A program made the position numbers and the translations under genes. DNA of 64,000 bases, taken from the NCBI GenBank assembly GCA_035533755.1, contig DATLTC010000060.1:62001-126000 (forward strand), given 5' to 3'. The notes beneath the pieces were generated by a model. The model worked only from the letters and a program-made list of their open reading frames with translations, was not told where the DNA came from and did no database searches. This document shows, piece after piece, positions 5,321 to 64,000 of the stretch; positions within the stretch are counted from its first letter, which is position 1, and each line of letters opens with the position of its first letter. The DNA is from Gemmatimonadaceae bacterium (lineage in GTDB: Bacteria > Gemmatimonadota > Gemmatimonadetes > Gemmatimonadales > Gemmatimonadaceae).

Positions 5321-6336
5321 TGCGCGCGCTCGTCACCGGCGCCACCGGGATGGTGGGCTGGCACATCGTCGAGCGCCTGCAGGCCGACGGGTGGACGGTG
5401 CGCGCCCTGGTGCGCGACCCGTCGCGGGCGCAGGAGCTGGCCGCGCTCGGCGTGGAGCTCCGCCGCGGCGACGTGCTCGACCAACCGTCGTTCGCCGCCG
5501 CGGCCGTGGGGTGCGACGTGATCTTCCACGCCGCGGCCGAGATCATGACCCGCGGCTGGGAAGCGTATCGCACGGTGAATGTGGACGGCACCCGCAACGC
5601 GATCTCGGCGGCGGCCTCGGCGGGCGCGCGCCTGATGCAGGTGAGCAGCGTGGCCGTGTACGGATCGGAAACGCGGTACCTGGGCGAGCGGCAGGGCACG
5701 AAGACGAGCGAGGATCTACCCCTGCTGCCGCTGCACGAGCGCGCGTACTACGCGCGCTCCAAGCGGGAGTCCGAGGAGTTGGTGATGGCGGCGCACCGCG
5801 AGGGGCGCATCTGGGCCACGGCGATTCGCCCCGACGTGGTGTACGGACGACGCGACCGGCAGTTCGTGCCGCGGCTCGCGCCGCTGCTGCGGTTCGGTGT
5901 CGTGCCGTTGATCGCCGGCGGGCGGAGCACACTCGCCGTGGTGCACGCGGCGAACGTGGCCGACGGCGCGGTGCGCGCGGCCACGAGCGACGTGGCCGGC
6001 GGGCGGGCCTACAATCTGGCCAACGACTATGACGTGACGGTGCGCGAGTTCTTCGCGTACGGCGCGCGCGGCCTCGGGCGCACGGCGCACTTCGTCCCGA
6101 TTCCGCTCGGGATGGCGCACGGCGCGCTGCGCGCCGCCAAGACGGGCGTGCGGGCCCTGTCGCTGGGACGGCTGCGGGTGGGCGGCGCGACGGCGGTGGA
6201 TTTTCTCACCCGCGACAATCCGTTCACGTCGGAGCGCGCCCGGCGGGAACTCGGGTGGACCCCCGCCGTGCGCCCGGCCGACGGCGTGCGCGACGCCTTC
6301 GCCTGGTGGCGCGCGCGGTCACGGGATGCGCGGTAA
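5320..6336 (+). CDS. NAD(P)-dependent sugar/steroid epimerase-type SDR
   Basis: A 338-residue extended short-chain dehydrogenase/reductase. The Rossmann motif GATGMVG is at residues 7-13, and the catalytic tyrosine-lysine pair appears in YYARSKRESEELV (YxxxK). The family includes nucleotide-sugar epimerases, dihydroflavonol reductases and hydroxysteroid dehydrogenases; the substrate cannot be assigned. The ATG shares its A with the upstream TAA (TAATG), so it is the last coupled gene of the operon. A strong hairpin follows six bases after its stop. Confidence 0.88.
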   Translation: MRALVTGATGMVGWHIVERLQADGWTVRALVRDPSRAQELAALGVELRRGDVLDQPSFAAAAVGCDVIFHAAAEIMTRGWEAYRTVNVDGTRNAISAAASAGARLMQVSSVAVYGSETRYLGERQGTKTSEDLPLLPLHERAYYARSKRESEELVMAAHREGRIWATAIRPDVVYGRRDRQFVPRLAPLLRFGVVPLIAGGRSTLAVVHAANVADGAVRAATSDVAGGRAYNLANDYDVTVREFFAYGARGLGRTAHFVPIPLGMAHGALRAAKTGVRALSLGRLRVGGATAVDFLTRDNPFTSERARRELGWTPAVRPADGVRDAFAWWRARSRDAR

Positions 6337-6341
6337 CGCAA

Positions 6342-6369
6342 ACGGGCGCGACCTTGCGGTCGCGCCCGT
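6342..6369. terminator. Hairpin terminator between convergent genes
   Basis: A perfect 12-bp inverted repeat (arms 6342-6353 and 6358-6369) with a TTGC loop separates the epimerase gene from the reverse-strand lipoprotein gene. No long T run follows on either strand, but position and symmetry suit a bidirectional terminator. Confidence 0.75.
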
Positions 6370-6394
6370 TCGGCGGTCTTGAAATACCCTGCAG

Positions 6395-6646
6395 TTACGG
6401 CTTCTTGACCGGAACGGCCTTCTTCGTCGTCGTCGACGTGGTCGTGGTCGTGGTCGTCGTCTTCGTCGAGTCCTTCTTCACCGTCGTGTCCTTCTTGGTC
6501 GAGTCCATGTTCATCGCCGACGAATCGGCGGGCGCAGCCGCCGGAGCAGCGGCGGGCGCCGCGGCAGCCGTGTCAGCGGCGGGTTTGGACTGCGACGAGC
6601 ATGCGGCAACCGCGAATACAGCGGCAACGAGGGCCAAGCGCTTCAT
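6395..6646 (-). CDS. Small low-complexity lipoprotein
   Basis: An 83-residue predicted lipoprotein. The signal peptide starts MKRLALVAAVFAVAAC, with the lipobox cysteine at residue 16. An Ala/Pro-rich stretch, a Met-Asn-Met patch and a Lys/Thr-rich tail with a run of threonines follow. The ATG at 6646 was chosen over a frame start 18 codons upstream because AGGAG stands seven bases before it and the signal peptide begins there. No domain is recognised; it is probably anchored in the outer membrane or periplasm. The basic tail could contact the envelope or peptidoglycan, which is a guess. A promoter candidate lies about 90-115 bases upstream. Confidence 0.72.
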   Translation of the reverse strand: MKRLALVAAVFAVAACSSQSKPAADTAAAAPAAAPAAAPADSSAMNMDSTKKDTTVKKDSTKTTTTTTTTSTTTKKAVPVKKP

Positions 6647-14318: not shown

Positions 14319-15599
14319 ATGCGCTTTCACACGTACACCAAGTTCAGCCCGCAGGCCGCCGACCAGGTGGACCTGCAGTCGCTGCTGGACAAGCTCGCGG
14401 ACTTCCTGCTGCAATCCGGCTTTGCCGGGGGCAACCTGCCCGCGCAGGGCGACTTCGATTTCAACGACGCGCACGACCGCTCGCTGGACGCGCTGCGCCA
14501 GGCCATCATCGACGCGCTCATCGAGAGCGGCCAGTTCACGCCCGAGATGCTCGAAGCGCTGCGCGGCGAGGGCGACGACGAGGGGCAGGCCAAGCTCGCC
14601 AAGCTCCTCGACGACCTCGTGCAGCGCCTGATCGACGAGGGCTTCCTCAACCTCGAGGCCCCGCCGCAGATGCCGGGCGGCCATCAGCCCATGGAAGGAC
14701 CGGGCAGCCTCGCGCGGGCCGCGGCGCGCGACGTCCAGTTCAACCTCACCGAGAAGGGCGTCGACTTCCTGGGCTACAAGACGCTGCGCAACCTGCTCGG
14801 TTCGCTCGGCAAGTCCAGCGCCGGCAGCCACGAGACGCCGCACCTGGCCACGGGCATCGAAGCCGACGGGTGGAGCAAGCCGTACGAATTCGGCGACGTG
14901 CTGAACCTCGACGTCAACGAGACGCTGAAGAACGCGCTCGTGCGCAACGGCACCCTCGACGTCCCGATCGATCTCGACTACGGCGACCTGATGGTGCGCC
15001 AGGCCGAGTACCGCTCGTCGTGCGCCACCGTGCTGATGCTCGACTGCTCGCACTCGATGATCCTGTACGGCGAGGACCGGTTCACGCCGGCCAAGAAGGT
15101 GGCGCTGGCGCTCACGCATCTCATCCGCACGCAATTTCCCGGCGACACGCTCAAGGTCGTGCTCTTCCACGACTCCGCCGAGGAGATCCCGCTCGGCGCC
15201 CTCGCCTCGGCGCAGGTGGGCCCGTATCACACGAACACCGCCGAGGGGCTCAAGCTGGCGCGCCGGCTGCTCATGGCGCAGAAGAAGGACATGCGCCAGA
15301 TCATCATGATCACCGACGGCAAGCCGAGCGCGCTCACGATGCCCAACGGGCAGATCTACAAGAACGCGTTCGGGCTCGACCTCACGGTGATCGCCGAGAC
15401 GCTCAAGGAAGTGGCGCGCTGCCGGCAGAGCGGGATCATGATCAACACGTTCATGCTGGCGCGCGATCGCGCGCTGGTGGAGTTCGTGAAGCGCGTGTCG
15501 GAGATCAGCCGCGGCAAGGCCTACTTCACGACGACGATGACGTTGGGGCAGTTCATCCTCATGGACTTCCTCAAGCGGAAGACCCGGAAAGTGTCCTAG
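14319..15599 (+). CDS. VWA-domain protein, probable partner of the AAA+ ATPase
   Basis: A 426-residue protein with a C-terminal von Willebrand A domain. The MIDAS motif DxSxS is D242-C-S244-H-S246, with the downstream [11 protein letters not shown]. The N-terminal 220 residues are acidic and helical and hold no motif I recognise. A strong GGAGGGGG site precedes the ATG. VWA proteins of this kind pair with MoxR/ChlI ATPases, and one is encoded at 9183-10652 on the same strand. The pairing is inference because two opposed genes intervene. The mutY start follows the stop by one base. Confidence 0.85.
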
Positions 15600-59136: not shown

Positions 59137-59429
59137 TGGCGCTCGACGTGCGCGCGCGCGCCGGCGGCGTGCGGCTGAGCGTGCACGTGCAACCGCGCGC
59201 CGCGCGCAGCGAGATCGCCGGGGTGCACGGCCAGGCGCTCAAGGTGCGGCTCCACGCGCCGCCCGTGGACGGCGCCGCCAACGAGGCGCTGGTCGCGTTC
59301 CTGGCCGAGACGTTCGCGCTCCCGCGCCGCGCGGTGCGCATCGTGAGCGGTCACACGGGGCGCGCCAAGATCGTGGAGCTGGACGGCATCGAACCCGACG
59401 CCGTCCGCCGCGCGGTGGGCGAGGGTTAG
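59136..59429 (+). CDS. DUF167 (YggU-like) protein
   Basis: A 97-residue DUF167 protein with the family blocks LSVHVQPRAARSEIAGVHG, LKVRLHAPPVDGAANEALV and VRIVSGHTGRAKIVEL. Function is unknown in the family. The ATG overlaps the YggT stop as TGATG, so translation is coupled. The 3' end overlaps the convergent kinase gene by four bases. Confidence 0.9.
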   Translation: MALDVRARAGGVRLSVHVQPRAARSEIAGVHGQALKVRLHAPPVDGAANEALVAFLAETFALPRRAVRIVSGHTGRAKIVELDGIEPDAVRRAVGEG

Positions 59430-61066
59430 CCCTCGACCACCGCCATCGCCGCCTGCATCGCCTCTTCCAGCCCTTCCATGCTGAACGGCTTGGCCAGGAA
59501 GGGCGTGTTGGCGTCGCTCAACTCCCGCCGCGTGAATTCGTCGGCGTGCCCGGACATGAACAGCACGTGCATGTTGGGCCGATCGGCCACGAGGAGATCG
59601 CGAAGCTCCAGGCCCGTCATGCCCGGCATGCGGATGTCCGTGATCAGCAGATCGATGTGCTCGCCGAACGCGCGGCTCACGCGCAGCGCCTCCTCGCCCG
59701 ACGGCGCGTCGAGCACCGTGTAGCGTCGTCGCGAGAGCGCCCGGCGCAGCACGTCGCGCACCGCCGCCTCGTCGTCCACCACCAGCACCGTCGTGCGACC
59801 CGAGATCACCCGCGTGCGCGACGGCGCCGTCGGCGTCCGCGGCACGAGCGTCAGCCGCGGCTCGCCGTGCGGCTCCTCGTCGGCCTCGACCGCCGACGGC
59901 GACGAAGTCGGCGCCGGCAACGGCAGCACCGGCGCGTCTTTGGCCCGCGGCAGATACACCGAGAACGTCGTCCCCTTGCCGGGTACCGTGGCAGGCCACA
60001 CGTATCCGCCGCTCTGCTTGACGATCCCGAACACCGTGGCCAGACCCAACCCCGTGCCCGTGTCCTTGGTGGTGTAGAACGGGTCGAAGGCCCGGGCCAC
60101 GGTGAGCGGATCCATCCCCACCCCCGTGTCGATCACGTCGAGGCGCACGTACGGACCGGGCTTCGGCGTCACCCCCCAGCGCCCGAACTCGGCGTCGAGG
60201 GTCACGGGGCGCGTCCGGATCGTGATCCGGCCCCGGTCCTCGATGGCGTCGCGCGCGTTCATCACGAGGTTCAGGACCACCTGTTCGAATTGCACCGGGT
60301 CGGCCAGCACCGGATCGATCGGCTCCTCGAGGTCCAGCGTGAGTTCGATCGTGCTCGCGGCGAGCACGCGCAGCATCGGCTGCATCTGGCGGATGCGCTT
60401 GTTCAGATCCAGGACTTCGGGGCGCAGCAGCTGGCGCCGGCTGAACGCCAGCAGCTGCCCGGTGAGCCCCGCCGCGCGCTCCGACGCCCGCACGATCTCA
60501 TCCACGCACTCGTGGGCCGCCTGGTTGTCGCCCACCGCTTCGAGCAGCAACGCCGAGAATCCCTTGATGGCGGTGAGGAGATTGTTGAAGTCGTGCGCCA
60601 CGCCCCCGGCCAGGAGACCCACCGCCTCCATCTTCTGCGCGTTGCGCAGGCGCATCTCGATCTGCCGCCGCTCCGTGACGTCCACGAACATCCCCATGAT
60701 CCCCACCACCCGGCCGCTCCGGTCGCGGAGCGCCGCCGTGTGGAACAGCGCGTTCACCCGCGTGCCGTCGCGTCGCAGACGCACCACCTCGCCGGCCCGC
60801 AGCGGATGGCCCTCAGCGGCGTTCCGGATGTGATCCATCATGGCCGGGAAGGCGTCGGGCGGCACGTGGGGCGGCTGCCGCCCGATCACATCCTCCGCCT
60901 TCCATCCGAACAGCCGCTCGGCCTCCGGATTCCACATCAGCACTCGCGCGTCGAGGCCCACCACGGTGATCGCCAGCGGCGACTGGTTCAGAACTTCGCG
61001 AAACGGCTCGAGGTCCTGATCGCCCGCCGGCTTGCCGCGCGAAGATTGGTCGATCGGAGTGGACAT
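59426..61066 (-). CDS. Hybrid sensor histidine kinase (PAS-HisKA-HATPase-REC)
   Basis: A 546-residue soluble hybrid kinase. A PAS domain spans about 20-135 (ITVVGLDARVLMWNPEAERL, followed by a PAC-like MFVDVTERRQ). The phosphoacceptor H158 is in GGVAHDFNNLL. The HATPase domain has NLVMNARDAIEDRG, DTGVGMDP and the G2 box TGLGLATVFGIVKQSGG. A Pro/Ser linker leads to a receiver domain with acidic DD, phosphoacceptor D477 (LLITDIRMPGM) and K526 (FLAKPFS). There are no membrane segments, so it senses a cytoplasmic cue. No separate DNA-binding regulator is adjacent; output may go through phosphotransfer. Confidence 0.92.
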   Translation of the reverse strand: MSTPIDQSSRGKPAGDQDLEPFREVLNQSPLAITVVGLDARVLMWNPEAERLFGWKAEDVIGRQPPHVPPDAFPAMMDHIRNAAEGHPLRAGEVVRLRRDGTRVNALFHTAALRDRSGRVVGIMGMFVDVTERRQIEMRLRNAQKMEAVGLLAGGVAHDFNNLLTAIKGFSALLLEAVGDNQAAHECVDEIVRASERAAGLTGQLLAFSRRQLLRPEVLDLNKRIRQMQPMLRVLAASTIELTLDLEEPIDPVLADPVQFEQVVLNLVMNARDAIEDRGRITIRTRPVTLDAEFGRWGVTPKPGPYVRLDVIDTGVGMDPLTVARAFDPFYTTKDTGTGLGLATVFGIVKQSGGYVWPATVPGKGTTFSVYLPRAKDAPVLPLPAPTSSPSAVEADEEPHGEPRLTLVPRTPTAPSRTRVISGRTTVLVVDDEAAVRDVLRRALSRRRYTVLDAPSGEEALRVSRAFGEHIDLLITDIRMPGMTGLELRDLLVADRPNMHVLFMSGHADEFTRRELSDANTPFLAKPFSMEGLEEAMQAAMAVVEG

Positions 61067-61107
61067 CGTCGGATGAGTCTCGAGAGAATGGCCTGGGGCC
61101 CGGTCGC

Positions 61108-61136
61108 TTGCCGCTCCCCGCCCCGCCCTTTAATAT
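61108..61136 (+). promoter_or_regulatory. Candidate promoter of metH
   Basis: TTGCCG (61108-61113), a 17-base spacer and TAATAT (61131-61136) form a good sigma-70-like pair in the gap between the divergent kinase and metH genes. Transcription would start near 61143, giving a leader of about 110 bases. Confidence 0.5.
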
Positions 61137-61142
61137 GCGCAG

Positions 61143-61253
61143 GGACAACCGTCCGTGGCGATTTTCGGCAAATTGCGGCCACGTTAAACAATCGCTAAAG
61201 CGCCTGGCTCGGCGCTCCCTGCTCCGGGCCCTTTTCGTTTTCCACCACTCGCG
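61143..61253 (+). promoter_or_regulatory. Structured metH leader
   Basis: Inverted repeats at 61154-61159/61178-61183 (CGTGGC/GCCACG) and 61158-61163/61190-61195 (GCGATT/AATCGC) share bases, so the two stems exclude each other. A further hairpin lies at 61199-61204/61211-61216, followed by a GGGCCCTTTT stretch. No Shine-Dalgarno sequence is evident before the ATG. I cannot match it to a known riboswitch class. Confidence 0.4.
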
Positions 61254-64000
61254 ATGCCCAGCACCTTGCCCCCGGGCCAGTACCTCGCTGAACTGTCACG
61301 TCGCGTCCTCGTCTTCGATGGCGCGATGGGCACCAATATCCAGCGCTACCATCTCACGGCGGAAGACTTCGGCGGAACGCGCCTCGAAGGCTGCAACGAT
61401 CACCTCGTGCTCACCCGCCCCGACGTGATCCGGGAAATCCACGAATCGTTCCTCGCCGTGGGCTGCGACGTCGTGGAAACCTGCACCTTCCAGTCCACCC
61501 CCCGCCGCCTGCGCGAGTGGGGAATCGAGCCCGAGACGCACGCGCTGAACGTGGCCGCGGCACGCCTCGCCCGCGCCGCGTGCGACCGCTATTCCACCCC
61601 CGGCAACCCTCGCTTTGTGGCCGGGTCGATCGGCCCCACCGGCATGCTCCCGTCGAGCAGCGACCCGACCCTCTCCAACGTCACGTTCGCCGAGCTGGCC
61701 GAGAACTACCATGCCCAGGCCAGGGCCCTCGTCGAGGGCGGCGTCGATCTCCTCCTCGTCGAGACGGCCCAGGACATCCTCGAGGTCAAGGCGGCCATGG
61801 CCGGCTTCGAGCGGCTGTTCGCCGAGCTCGGCTACCGCGTGCCCGTGCAGACGCAGATCACGCTCGACGTCAGCGGCCGCATGCTCCTCGGCACCGACGT
61901 CGCCAGCGCGCTCACCACGCTGGAATCGCTGCGCGTGGACGTGATCGGCCTCAATTGCTCCACGGGCCCCGAGCACATGCGCGAGCCCATCCGGTACCTC
62001 GCCGAGAACGCTACGCGCCCGGTGTCGTGCATCCCCAACGCCGGCCTGCCGCTCAACACCGGCACCGGCGACGCCGTGTATCCGCTCCAACCGGAGCCGA
62101 TGGCCGCCATGCTCGGCGAATTCGTGGAGCAGTTCGGCGTGCGGATCGTGGGCGGCTGCTGCGGCACCACCCCCGAGCACCTCGACGCGATCGTCCGCGC
62201 CGTGCGCGCCACCCACCGCGCCGCCTCGCCGTGGGAATCGCGGATCGCCCACGTGCCGCGCGTGTCGTCGGCCATGCGCGCCACGACGCTCGAACAGCAG
62301 CCGCCGCCGCTGCTCATCGGCGAGCGCGTCAATGCCCAGGGCTCGCGCAAGGTCAAGCAGCTGCTGCTGGCCGACGACTATGAAGGCATCGTCGAGGTCG
62401 CGCGCCAGCAGCAGGAAGCCGGCGCCCACGTGCTCGACGTCTGCGTGGCCGTCACCGAACGCGCCGACGAAGCCGAACAGATGGCCACGCTCGTCAAGCT
62501 CCTCTCGATGAGCGTCGAACTGCCGCTGATGATCGACTCCACCGAGCCGGCGGTGATCGAAGCGGCCCTCCAGCACGTGCCCGGCCGCGCCATCGTCAAC
62601 TCCATCAACATGGAGAACGGCCGCGCGCGCATCGACGCCGTGGTGCCGATCGCGCGCCGCCACGGCGCCGCGCTGGTCGCGCTCACGATCGACGAAGCGG
62701 GCATGGCCAAGACGCGCGAGCGCAAGCTCGAGGTGGCGCGCCGGATCTACGACATCGTCGTCGACGAGTACGGCCTCGCCCCGGAAGACCTGATCTACGA
62801 CGCCCTCACCTTCACGCTCGCCACCGGCGACGCCGAGTGGATCGACTCCGCCTGGGAAACACTCGAAGGCATCCGGCTCATCAAGCGCGAGCTGCCCGGC
62901 GTGTACACCTCGCTCGGCGTGTCGAACGTGAGCTTCGGGCTGGCGCCGGCGGCGCGCGCCGTGCTCAACTCCGTGTTCCTGCACCACGGCGTGGAAGCGG
63001 GACTCGACATGGCGATCGTGAACCCGGCCCACATCGTCCCCTACGCCGAGATCTCCGATACGGTGCGCGCGCTGGCCGACGACCTCGTGTTCAATCGGAA
63101 TCCGGACGCGCTGCAGCACTTCATCGATCACTTCAGCGCCGGCGCCGCCGGGCCGGCCACCGCCTCCGGCGCGCCGATCGCCGACCCGACCTCGGCCATG
63201 ACGCCGGACGAGAAGGCGCGGTGGATGGTGGTCCACCGCAAGAAGGACGGCATCGAAGCCGTGCTCGACGCCGCTGGCGTGCGCACCAACCCGGTGCGCG
63301 TGCTCAACGACGTGCTCCTGCCCGCCATGAAGGAGGTGGGCGACCGGTTCGGCGCCGGGGACCTCATCCTGCCGTTCGTGCTCCAGTCGGCCGAGGTGAT
63401 GAAGAAGGCGGTCAAGCACCTCGAGCAGTTCCTCGAGAAAGCCGAGGGCTACACCAAGGGACGCGTCGTTCTCGCCACCGTGTACGGCGACGTCCATGAC
63501 ATCGGCAAGTCGCTCGTCAACACGATCCTCTCCAACAACGGCTATACCGTGTTCGACCTCGGCAAGCAGGTGCCCGTGAACACGATCCTCGAGAAGGCGC
63601 AGGAGGTGAACGCCGACGCCATCGGCCTCTCGGCATTGCTCGTCTCCACCTCCAAGCAGATGCCGTTGTGCGTGCAGGAGCTGGACAAGCGCGGCATGCG
63701 CATTCCGGTGCTCATCGGCGGCGCGGCGATCAACCGCCGGTTCGGCCGCCGCGCCATGTTCGTGGACGGCGAACGCGCGTACGAGCCCGGCGTGTTCTAC
63801 TGCAAGGACGCGTTCGAGGGGCTGGAGACGATGGAGGCGCTGCAGAACCCCGACCGGCGCGCCGCCGTCACCCGCCAGCTGCACGACGACGCGCGCAACG
63901 ACGTCTTCCTCCACTCCGCGGCCGGCAAGGACATCCGCGCCGGTACCGACGACGAGCGGCGCAGCGGCGTCCGCGCCGATCACCCGGTGCCCGCCGCGCC
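61254..64000 (+). CDS. metH: Cobalamin-dependent methionine synthase MetH, 3' truncated by window
   Basis: B12-dependent methionine synthase making methionine from homocysteine and methyltetrahydrofolate. About 915 residues are visible and the frame is open at the window end. Domains in order are the homocysteine-binding module (VFDGAMGTNIQRYHLTAEDF; zinc ligands C235, C302, C303), the pterin-binding barrel (IGERVNAQGSRKVKQLL onward, about 345-620), the cap helices, and the cobalamin domain with D746-V-H748-D-I-G751. The SAM-activation domain would lie beyond the edge. The ATG at 61254 opens the conserved N-terminus. Confidence 0.95.
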   Translation, partial: MPSTLPPGQYLAELSRRVLVFDGAMGTNIQRYHLTAEDFGGTRLEGCNDHLVLTRPDVIREIHESFLAVGCDVVETCTFQSTPRRLREWGIEPETHALNVAAARLARAACDRYSTPGNPRFVAGSIGPTGMLPSSSDPTLSNVTFAELAENYHAQARALVEGGVDLLLVETAQDILEVKAAMAGFERLFAELGYRVPVQTQITLDVSGRMLLGTDVASALTTLESLRVDVIGLNCSTGPEHMREPIRYLAENATRPVSCIPNAGLPLNTGTGDAVYPLQPEPMAAMLGEFVEQFGVRIVGGCCGTTPEHLDAIVRAVRATHRAASPWESRIAHVPRVSSAMRATTLEQQPPPLLIGERVNAQGSRKVKQLLLADDYEGIVEVARQQQEAGAHVLDVCVAVTERADEAEQMATLVKLLSMSVELPLMIDSTEPAVIEAALQHVPGRAIVNSINMENGRARIDAVVPIARRHGAALVALTIDEAGMAKTRERKLEVARRIYDIVVDEYGLAPEDLIYDALTFTLATGDAEWIDSAWETLEGIRLIKRELPGVYTSLGVSNVSFGLAPAARAVLNSVFLHHGVEAGLDMAIVNPAHIVPYAEISDTVRALADDLVFNRNPDALQHFIDHFSAGAAGPATASGAPIADPTSAMTPDEKARWMVVHRKKDGIEAVLDAAGVRTNPVRVLNDVLLPAMKEVGDRFGAGDLILPFVLQSAEVMKKAVKHLEQFLEKAEGYTKGRVVLATVYGDVHDIGKSLVNTILSNNGYTVFDLGKQVPVNTILEKAQEVNADAIGLSALLVSTSKQMPLCVQELDKRGMRIPVLIGGAAINRRFGRRAMFVDGERAYEPGVFYCKDAFEGLETMEALQNPDRRAAVTRQLHDDARNDVFLHSAAGKDIRAGTDDERRSGVRADHPVPAA

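Follow-up and report, generated by a model that had tools for sequence, protein, structure and literature searches.

A predicted SAM-II riboswitch upstream of metH in Gemmatimonadota and its conserved, mutually exclusive downstream pairings

The metH locus

The stretch of DNA analysed, 64 kb from a Gemmatimonadaceae bacterium and hereafter called the window, ends within metH (61254-64000, plus strand, continuing past the window), the gene for cobalamin-dependent methionine synthase. The full protein is 1173 aa long (locus L234, 755-4276) and scores 1120.5 bits against TIGR02082, above the cut-off of 1010.85; it contains the S-methyl_trans and Pterin_bind domains, both B12-binding domains and Met_synt_B12. 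As judged by these matches, the window's gene is a true metH, whose product has B12-binding and activation domains, and the nearest named relatives of the protein (85-86% identical) are from Gemmatimonadota genomes. The genome, which is 98% complete, yielded no MetE catalytic domain, and the riboswitch proposed below may therefore control the sole methionine synthase.

The metH leader is flanked by the metH ATG at 61254 and by a divergent ORF (59426-61066, minus strand, 546 aa), whose product, by eye, resembles a fusion of a sensor histidine kinase and a receiver domain. The first-pass annotation had placed in the leader two alternative stems, a third hairpin and a T-rich stretch, and had seen no ribosome site. 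All four elements lie at the positions given for them, and by eye there is no purine-rich site upstream of the metH ATG. Folding energy is uninformative as evidence for the leader, since its value is unremarkable (z -0.92) and 34 of 200 shuffled sequences fold equally well.

Assignment of the leader to SAM-II

When the entire window was compared with all Rfam families, positions 61145-61218 of the plus strand matched RF00521 (SAM_alpha, that is, SAM-II) at 40.1 bits (cut-off 36) and an E value of 1.5e-05, the match covering model positions 1-79 of 79. This is the sole Rfam 15 family above its cut-off within the 64-kb window; no further Rfam 15 riboswitch family for SAM, SAH or cobalamin reached its cut-off there, and no SAM-I riboswitch was found in the genome. 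The leader is not a member of RF01726 (SAM-II long loop), for which it scores 18.6 bits against a cut-off of 44, and the core words shared by the two (GAUUU, AUUGC and GCUAAA) align. The core words of the Rfam consensus line, GAUUU, UUGC, GUUAAA and GCUAAA, are all present in the window, and the match lies upstream of a gene for methionine or SAM synthesis, as is expected of a SAM-II riboswitch, metH being assigned over the TIGR02082 cut-off. Judged by its sequence, the metH leader is a copy of the SAM-II riboswitch, a known class, and it would bind SAM and terminate transcription before metH. The leader had earlier been put forward as a new regulatory RNA matching no known class, and a new riboswitch class has to be rejected because the curated RF00521 cut-off is exceeded. 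The broader proposal, a cis-regulatory RNA with alternative pairings upstream of metH, is borne out by the same match together with the conserved competing pairings described below, and SAM, one of the ligands proposed, fits the SAM-II assignment, the ligand following from the class. The finding is thereby placed in a known class with a predictable ligand, and the class is common in the Gemmatimonadota sample.

RF00521 matches were present in 170 of 249 genomes sampled from Gemmatimonadota (a phylum label that rests on named relatives), over the cut-off in 147, and in 0 of 14 control genomes. SAM-II seems widespread in this sample and poorly documented in the phylum; no report of SAM-II in Gemmatimonadota was found in the open-licence literature, and the RF00521 member list may include the phylum. 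In a second, named set (n = 80, up to 700 bases upstream, less at contig ends), in which loci were labelled by record title, the motif occurred in 27 of 42 Gemmatimonadota-type loci and in one 'unidentified' locus, and in none of the 26 Chloroflexi-type loci. The Gemmatimonadota-type loci L203, L206, L207, L225 and L227 fit only a looser pattern.

For comparison of the leaders we used 152 loci, namely the strongest 150 matches among the phylum genomes and two more from the genome under study. Of these, 150 could be parsed; L047 and L082, which by eye are SAM-II-like, did not fit the parsing scheme and are absent from the counts. The parsing pattern fixes TTGC, GCTAA and parts of P1, and leaves P2b and the downstream hairpins free. 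Counting identical aptamers once gave 134 distinct aptamers from the 150 loci, and removal of duplicates gave 55 unique leaders (37 of 42 metH and 18 of 20 metF-metH leaders).

The aptamer

All elements of the aptamer are on the plus strand. Stem P1 consists of six pairs (CGTGGC 61154-61159 with GCCACG 61178-61183) and is part of the RF00521 model as a paired region. Each of its positions is paired in 133-134 of the 134 distinct aptamers, a figure that is partly a matter of construction since the parsing pattern fixes some of the letters. Loop L1, GATTT at 61160-61164, is conserved as GATTT in 123 of the 134; in the solved SAM-II RNA, according to an excerpt of PMC5352136, L1 makes a triplex with P2b. 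The pseudoknot is formed by P2a (TTGC 61173-61176 with GCTA 61194-61197, with a U-U at the third position) and by the three pairs of P2b (GGC 61167-61169 with GCC 61202-61204). P2a, like P1, is almost invariant among the 134 aptamers, partly because the parsing pattern demands both.

RF00521 models P1 only and the parsing pattern leaves P2b free, so that covariation in P2b is not built in. The outer P2b pair does covary: it is paired in 94 of the 134 distinct aptamers against a mean of 59.6 after re-dealing of partners, a level reached by 0 of 500 shuffles, and it occurs as G-C in 54 aptamers and as C-G in 32 (these, like all counts of conservation and covariation given here, ignore the relatedness of the sequences). 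Among the metH and metF-metH leaders all three P2b pairs are kept in 52 of 55 and broken in three.

Promoter and conserved 5' element

A promoter-like pair upstream of the aptamer (TTGCCG 61108-61113, a spacing of 17 bases, TAATAT 61131-61136, plus strand), with 8 of 12 consensus matches, would place the start of transcription near 61142-61145, just before P1. The scanner, the threshold of which is 9/12, does not report this pair; pairs with at least 8/12 matches are found in 50 of 132 related leaders, against 3.4 in shuffles. The scanner's own promoter-like site (61060-61089; 9/12 matches, 0.1 expected) lies further upstream, and a start from there would likewise take the aptamer into the transcript.

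Shortly before P1, ACAACCGT (61145-61152, plus strand) is the local form of a conserved element, ACAAYYGA, and lies at the likely 5' end of the transcript. In the RF00521 consensus the corresponding positions are in lower case, whereas ACAA stands 6-22 bases 5' of P1 in 98 of the 132 leaders used for the upstream counts, against 5.6 in shuffles. The octamer ACAAYYGA is not common elsewhere in the window (one match, 3.07 expected). A search for a pairing partner, based on the 104 leaders with ACAA and keyed on a longer stretch, gave no convincing candidate among 132 column pairs.

Predicted competing hairpins downstream of the aptamer

Two further hairpins can form on the plus strand. The third hairpin, AGCGCC 61199-61204 with GGCGCT 61211-61216 (-10.1 kcal/mol), is the proposed antiterminator, and the terminator-like hairpin, GGCTCGG 61206-61212 with CCGGGCC 61224-61230 (-15.8 kcal/mol), is followed directly on its 3' side by the T-rich stretch CTTTTCGTTTT (61231-61241). 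The third hairpin shares its 5' arm with P2b, and its 3' arm overlaps the 5' arm of the terminator; P2, the third hairpin and the terminator would therefore compete with one another. A simple scanner that considers only loops of 3-8 detected no terminator in the metH leader, and the U-tract is interrupted by CG. Among the parsed leaders, terminator-like hairpins lie 3' of the aptamer in 121 of 150, against 48.4 in shuffles.

The five-pair core of the third hairpin is present in 46 of the 55 unique metH or metF-metH leaders, where chance would give 4.8 (shuffles) or 6.9 (local shuffles). In one leader, L186, the first pair is exchanged from G-C to C-G; five leaders carry a joint change, from G/C/G to A/T/A, of the bases in the pseudoknot, in the shared strand and in the hairpin; and the fifth pair is replaced by C-A in four leaders and by A-G in one. 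Re-dealing the hairpin 5-mers among the leaders still yields 43.3 of 55, and a value as high as 46 arises in 123 of 2000 deals, so that the covariation apparent within the metH/metF-metH group is weak. When the antiterminator was assessed leader by leader, the window alone gave a non-significant p of 0.17, and p was at most 0.05 in 28% of 121 leaders. The antiterminator signal, as these sequences present it, is in the conservation across leaders.

A second form appears in other families of the phylum, in which GCUAAA and the bases that follow it pair with a complementary stretch of the terminator (38 of 150 leaders, 3.3 expected). Among 15 distinct helices of this type, base-pair exchanges are seen at the 7th and 8th pairs.

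Proposed mechanism and alternatives

Comparison of the leaders shows an aptamer (P1, L1, P2, L3) accompanied by a conserved downstream hairpin that is predicted to overlap both P2 and the terminator-like hairpin. On this evidence we estimate at roughly 75% the probability that the metH leader works as a SAM-II switch which turns methionine synthase off by transcription termination. RNA polymerase would start immediately 5' of the aptamer. Plentiful S-adenosylmethionine would stabilise P2 and sequester GCUAAAGCGCC (61194-61204); with the AGCGCC/GGCGCU pairing thus blocked, GGCUCGG would pair with CCGGGCC and transcription would stop at the U-tract, short of metH. At low SAM levels, AGCGCC would capture the nascent GGCGCU before the 3' arm of the terminator (61224-61230) exists, and polymerase would read through into metH. 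The computed energies favour the terminator over the antiterminator (-15.8 vs -10.1 kcal/mol), so the model needs this folding order; that is, the antiterminator must win by forming first. Antiterminator logic is usual for OFF switches according to an excerpt of PMC2258182, which in 2007 described termination by the SAM-II pseudoknot as not experimentally established. The compact and conserved expression platform found here could serve as a model for a SAM-II pseudoknot that drives termination.

The alternative that fares best retains the same aptamer and has it act on translation, P2 blocking the access of ribosomes to metH, as it does in the Sargasso metX RNA. There are precedents for SAM-II switches that act on translation (a form reviewed in PMC10907184, and metA in PMC9373788, both in excerpt), and in 5 of the 150 loci (L007, L009, L010, L012 and L025) an ATG directly follows P2. 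In the metH leader, however, P2 ends at 61204 and the ATG stands at 61254, with the terminator-like hairpin and U-tract between them, and P2 contains no ribosome site, which makes translational control unlikely at this locus.

The first-pass annotation had taken P1 and a second, overlapping stem, GCGATT 61158-61163 with AATCGC 61190-61195 (plus strand), for the two states of the switch. Both stems can form in this sequence, and the second belongs to the computed ligand-free, pseudoknot-free fold and recurs in L153 and L154, the two closest named relatives. Yet it is weaker than P1 (-6.4 vs -8.7), and its four L1/L3 pairs occur together in only 20 of the 134 aptamers, each column being paired no better than shuffled; the stem is present in 8 of the 37 closest metH leaders and in 0 of 18 metF-metH leaders. 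Such a switch appears improbable. As far as sequence comparison can tell, GCGATT/AATCGC is a local possibility of this leader and not a conserved switch, the conserved competition being instead that among P2, the third hairpin and the terminator. The covariation among relatives that had been suggested as a check is thus seen for the outer P2b pair but not for the L1/L3 pairs of GCGATT/AATCGC (134 distinct aptamers).

That the leader is a SAM-II relic which has lost its switching might be suspected from its interrupted U-tract and from its 40.1 bits, the lowest score of the genome's three copies over the cut-off, but its core letters and all three pairs of P2b are preserved, and L153 and L154 keep the aptamer, the third hairpin and both arms of the terminator-like hairpin; we give a relic little credence. 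A new class with SAH, cobalamin or methionine as its ligand, as had also been proposed, is hardly credible, its sole support being the metH context, whereas RF00521 is over its cut-off, no SAH or cobalamin family is so in the window, and the one cobalamin match in the genome is on a different contig, which likewise led us to reject cobalamin control.

Comparison with known SAM-II systems

Returning to the SAM-II OFF switch, the closest likeness is with the metA element of Alphaproteobacteria, a member of RF00521 for which an excerpt of PMC1273637 describes SAM binding, promoters placed shortly before P1 and terminators downstream of P2; the same excerpt reports no response of the A. tumefaciens SAM-II RNA to 1 mM SAH or methionine. 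The metA element and the metH leader share P1, L1, P2a, P2b and L3, and in addition a promoter-like site before P1, a terminator-like hairpin after P2 and a downstream methionine gene. A SAM-dependent terminator after the aptamer is likewise predicted for the SAM-II element of Sinorhizobium meliloti metZ (PMC9373788, in excerpt); the gene there is a different one. The SAM_alpha targets in Proteobacteria named in an excerpt of PMC4239095 are metY, hom, metA, metX, metC and metW, whereas here the target is metH and the host belongs to Gemmatimonadota. What is new here is modest, namely the metH target, the two putative antiterminator forms and the conserved 5' ACAAYYGA element.

SAM-II copies and their target genes in Gemmatimonadota

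Of the 150 parsed leaders, 95 have, no more than 1.7 kb downstream, a sequence resembling the N-terminal portion (homocysteine methyltransferase) of the window's MetH, which lies within 450 bases in 75 cases and at about 1 kb in 20. In L030, the only one of the 20 to be scanned, the first gene encodes MTHFR, and at least one of the 75 near cases (L007) is a bifunctional homocysteine methyltransferase/MTHFR and not MetH. The other downstream clusters among the 150 leaders take their names in each case from a single scanned member and comprise metY (10), threonine synthase (9), metX (8), a weakly RimK-like protein (5; 52.5 bits, under the cut-off), aspartokinase (5) and panB (4).

On balance we lean slightly towards a SAM-II regulon of Gemmatimonadota that has methionine synthase at its centre, in which two different conserved antiterminators, one using the P2b strand (GCGCY/RGYGC, the form of the metH leader) and the other the GCUAAA of the ligand core, would compete with the ligand-bound pseudoknot, and in which, in a few species, the start codon would abut P2 and be masked directly. 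If this is true, the ligand-binding strand would at the same time be an antiterminator arm, and a single sequence would be under double constraint.

In the five loci with an ATG directly after P2, the ATG lies 8 bases after GCTAAA with no terminator between, and any ribosome site would have to fall within P2. In these loci the start codon may itself be covered by the pseudoknot. Another side observation concerns L147 (G199:C27:7808-7882), where a SAM-II match precedes the SAM synthetase gene metK (490.8 bits against TIGR01034, above the cut-off); it is the single metK case among the 150 parsed leaders.

The genome under study carries four matches to RF00521. Three exceed the cut-off (60.6, 54.7 and 40.1 bits, the metH leader being the lowest of them) and one falls just short of it (35.5 bits). 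The genome's only cobalamin riboswitch match, in L235 (G000:C53:74377-74489, minus strand), covers model positions 47-167 of 189. The 54.7-bit SAM-II copy (L002 1501-1575; G000:C16:7718-7792) is accompanied by a terminator-like hairpin and has a gene of the threonine synthase cluster downstream. On another contig, two SAM-II matches lie back to back (G000:C13:14227-14302, minus, and 14510-14583, plus; L233, about 6200-6600). The 60.6-bit copy of this pair precedes panB (TIGR00222, over the cut-off), and the 35.5-bit copy precedes a gene without a family match, which is followed by a gene for a luciferase-like monooxygenase. The best-scoring model for this monooxygenase is that of SfnG, a dimethylsulfone monooxygenase, with a score under the cut-off.
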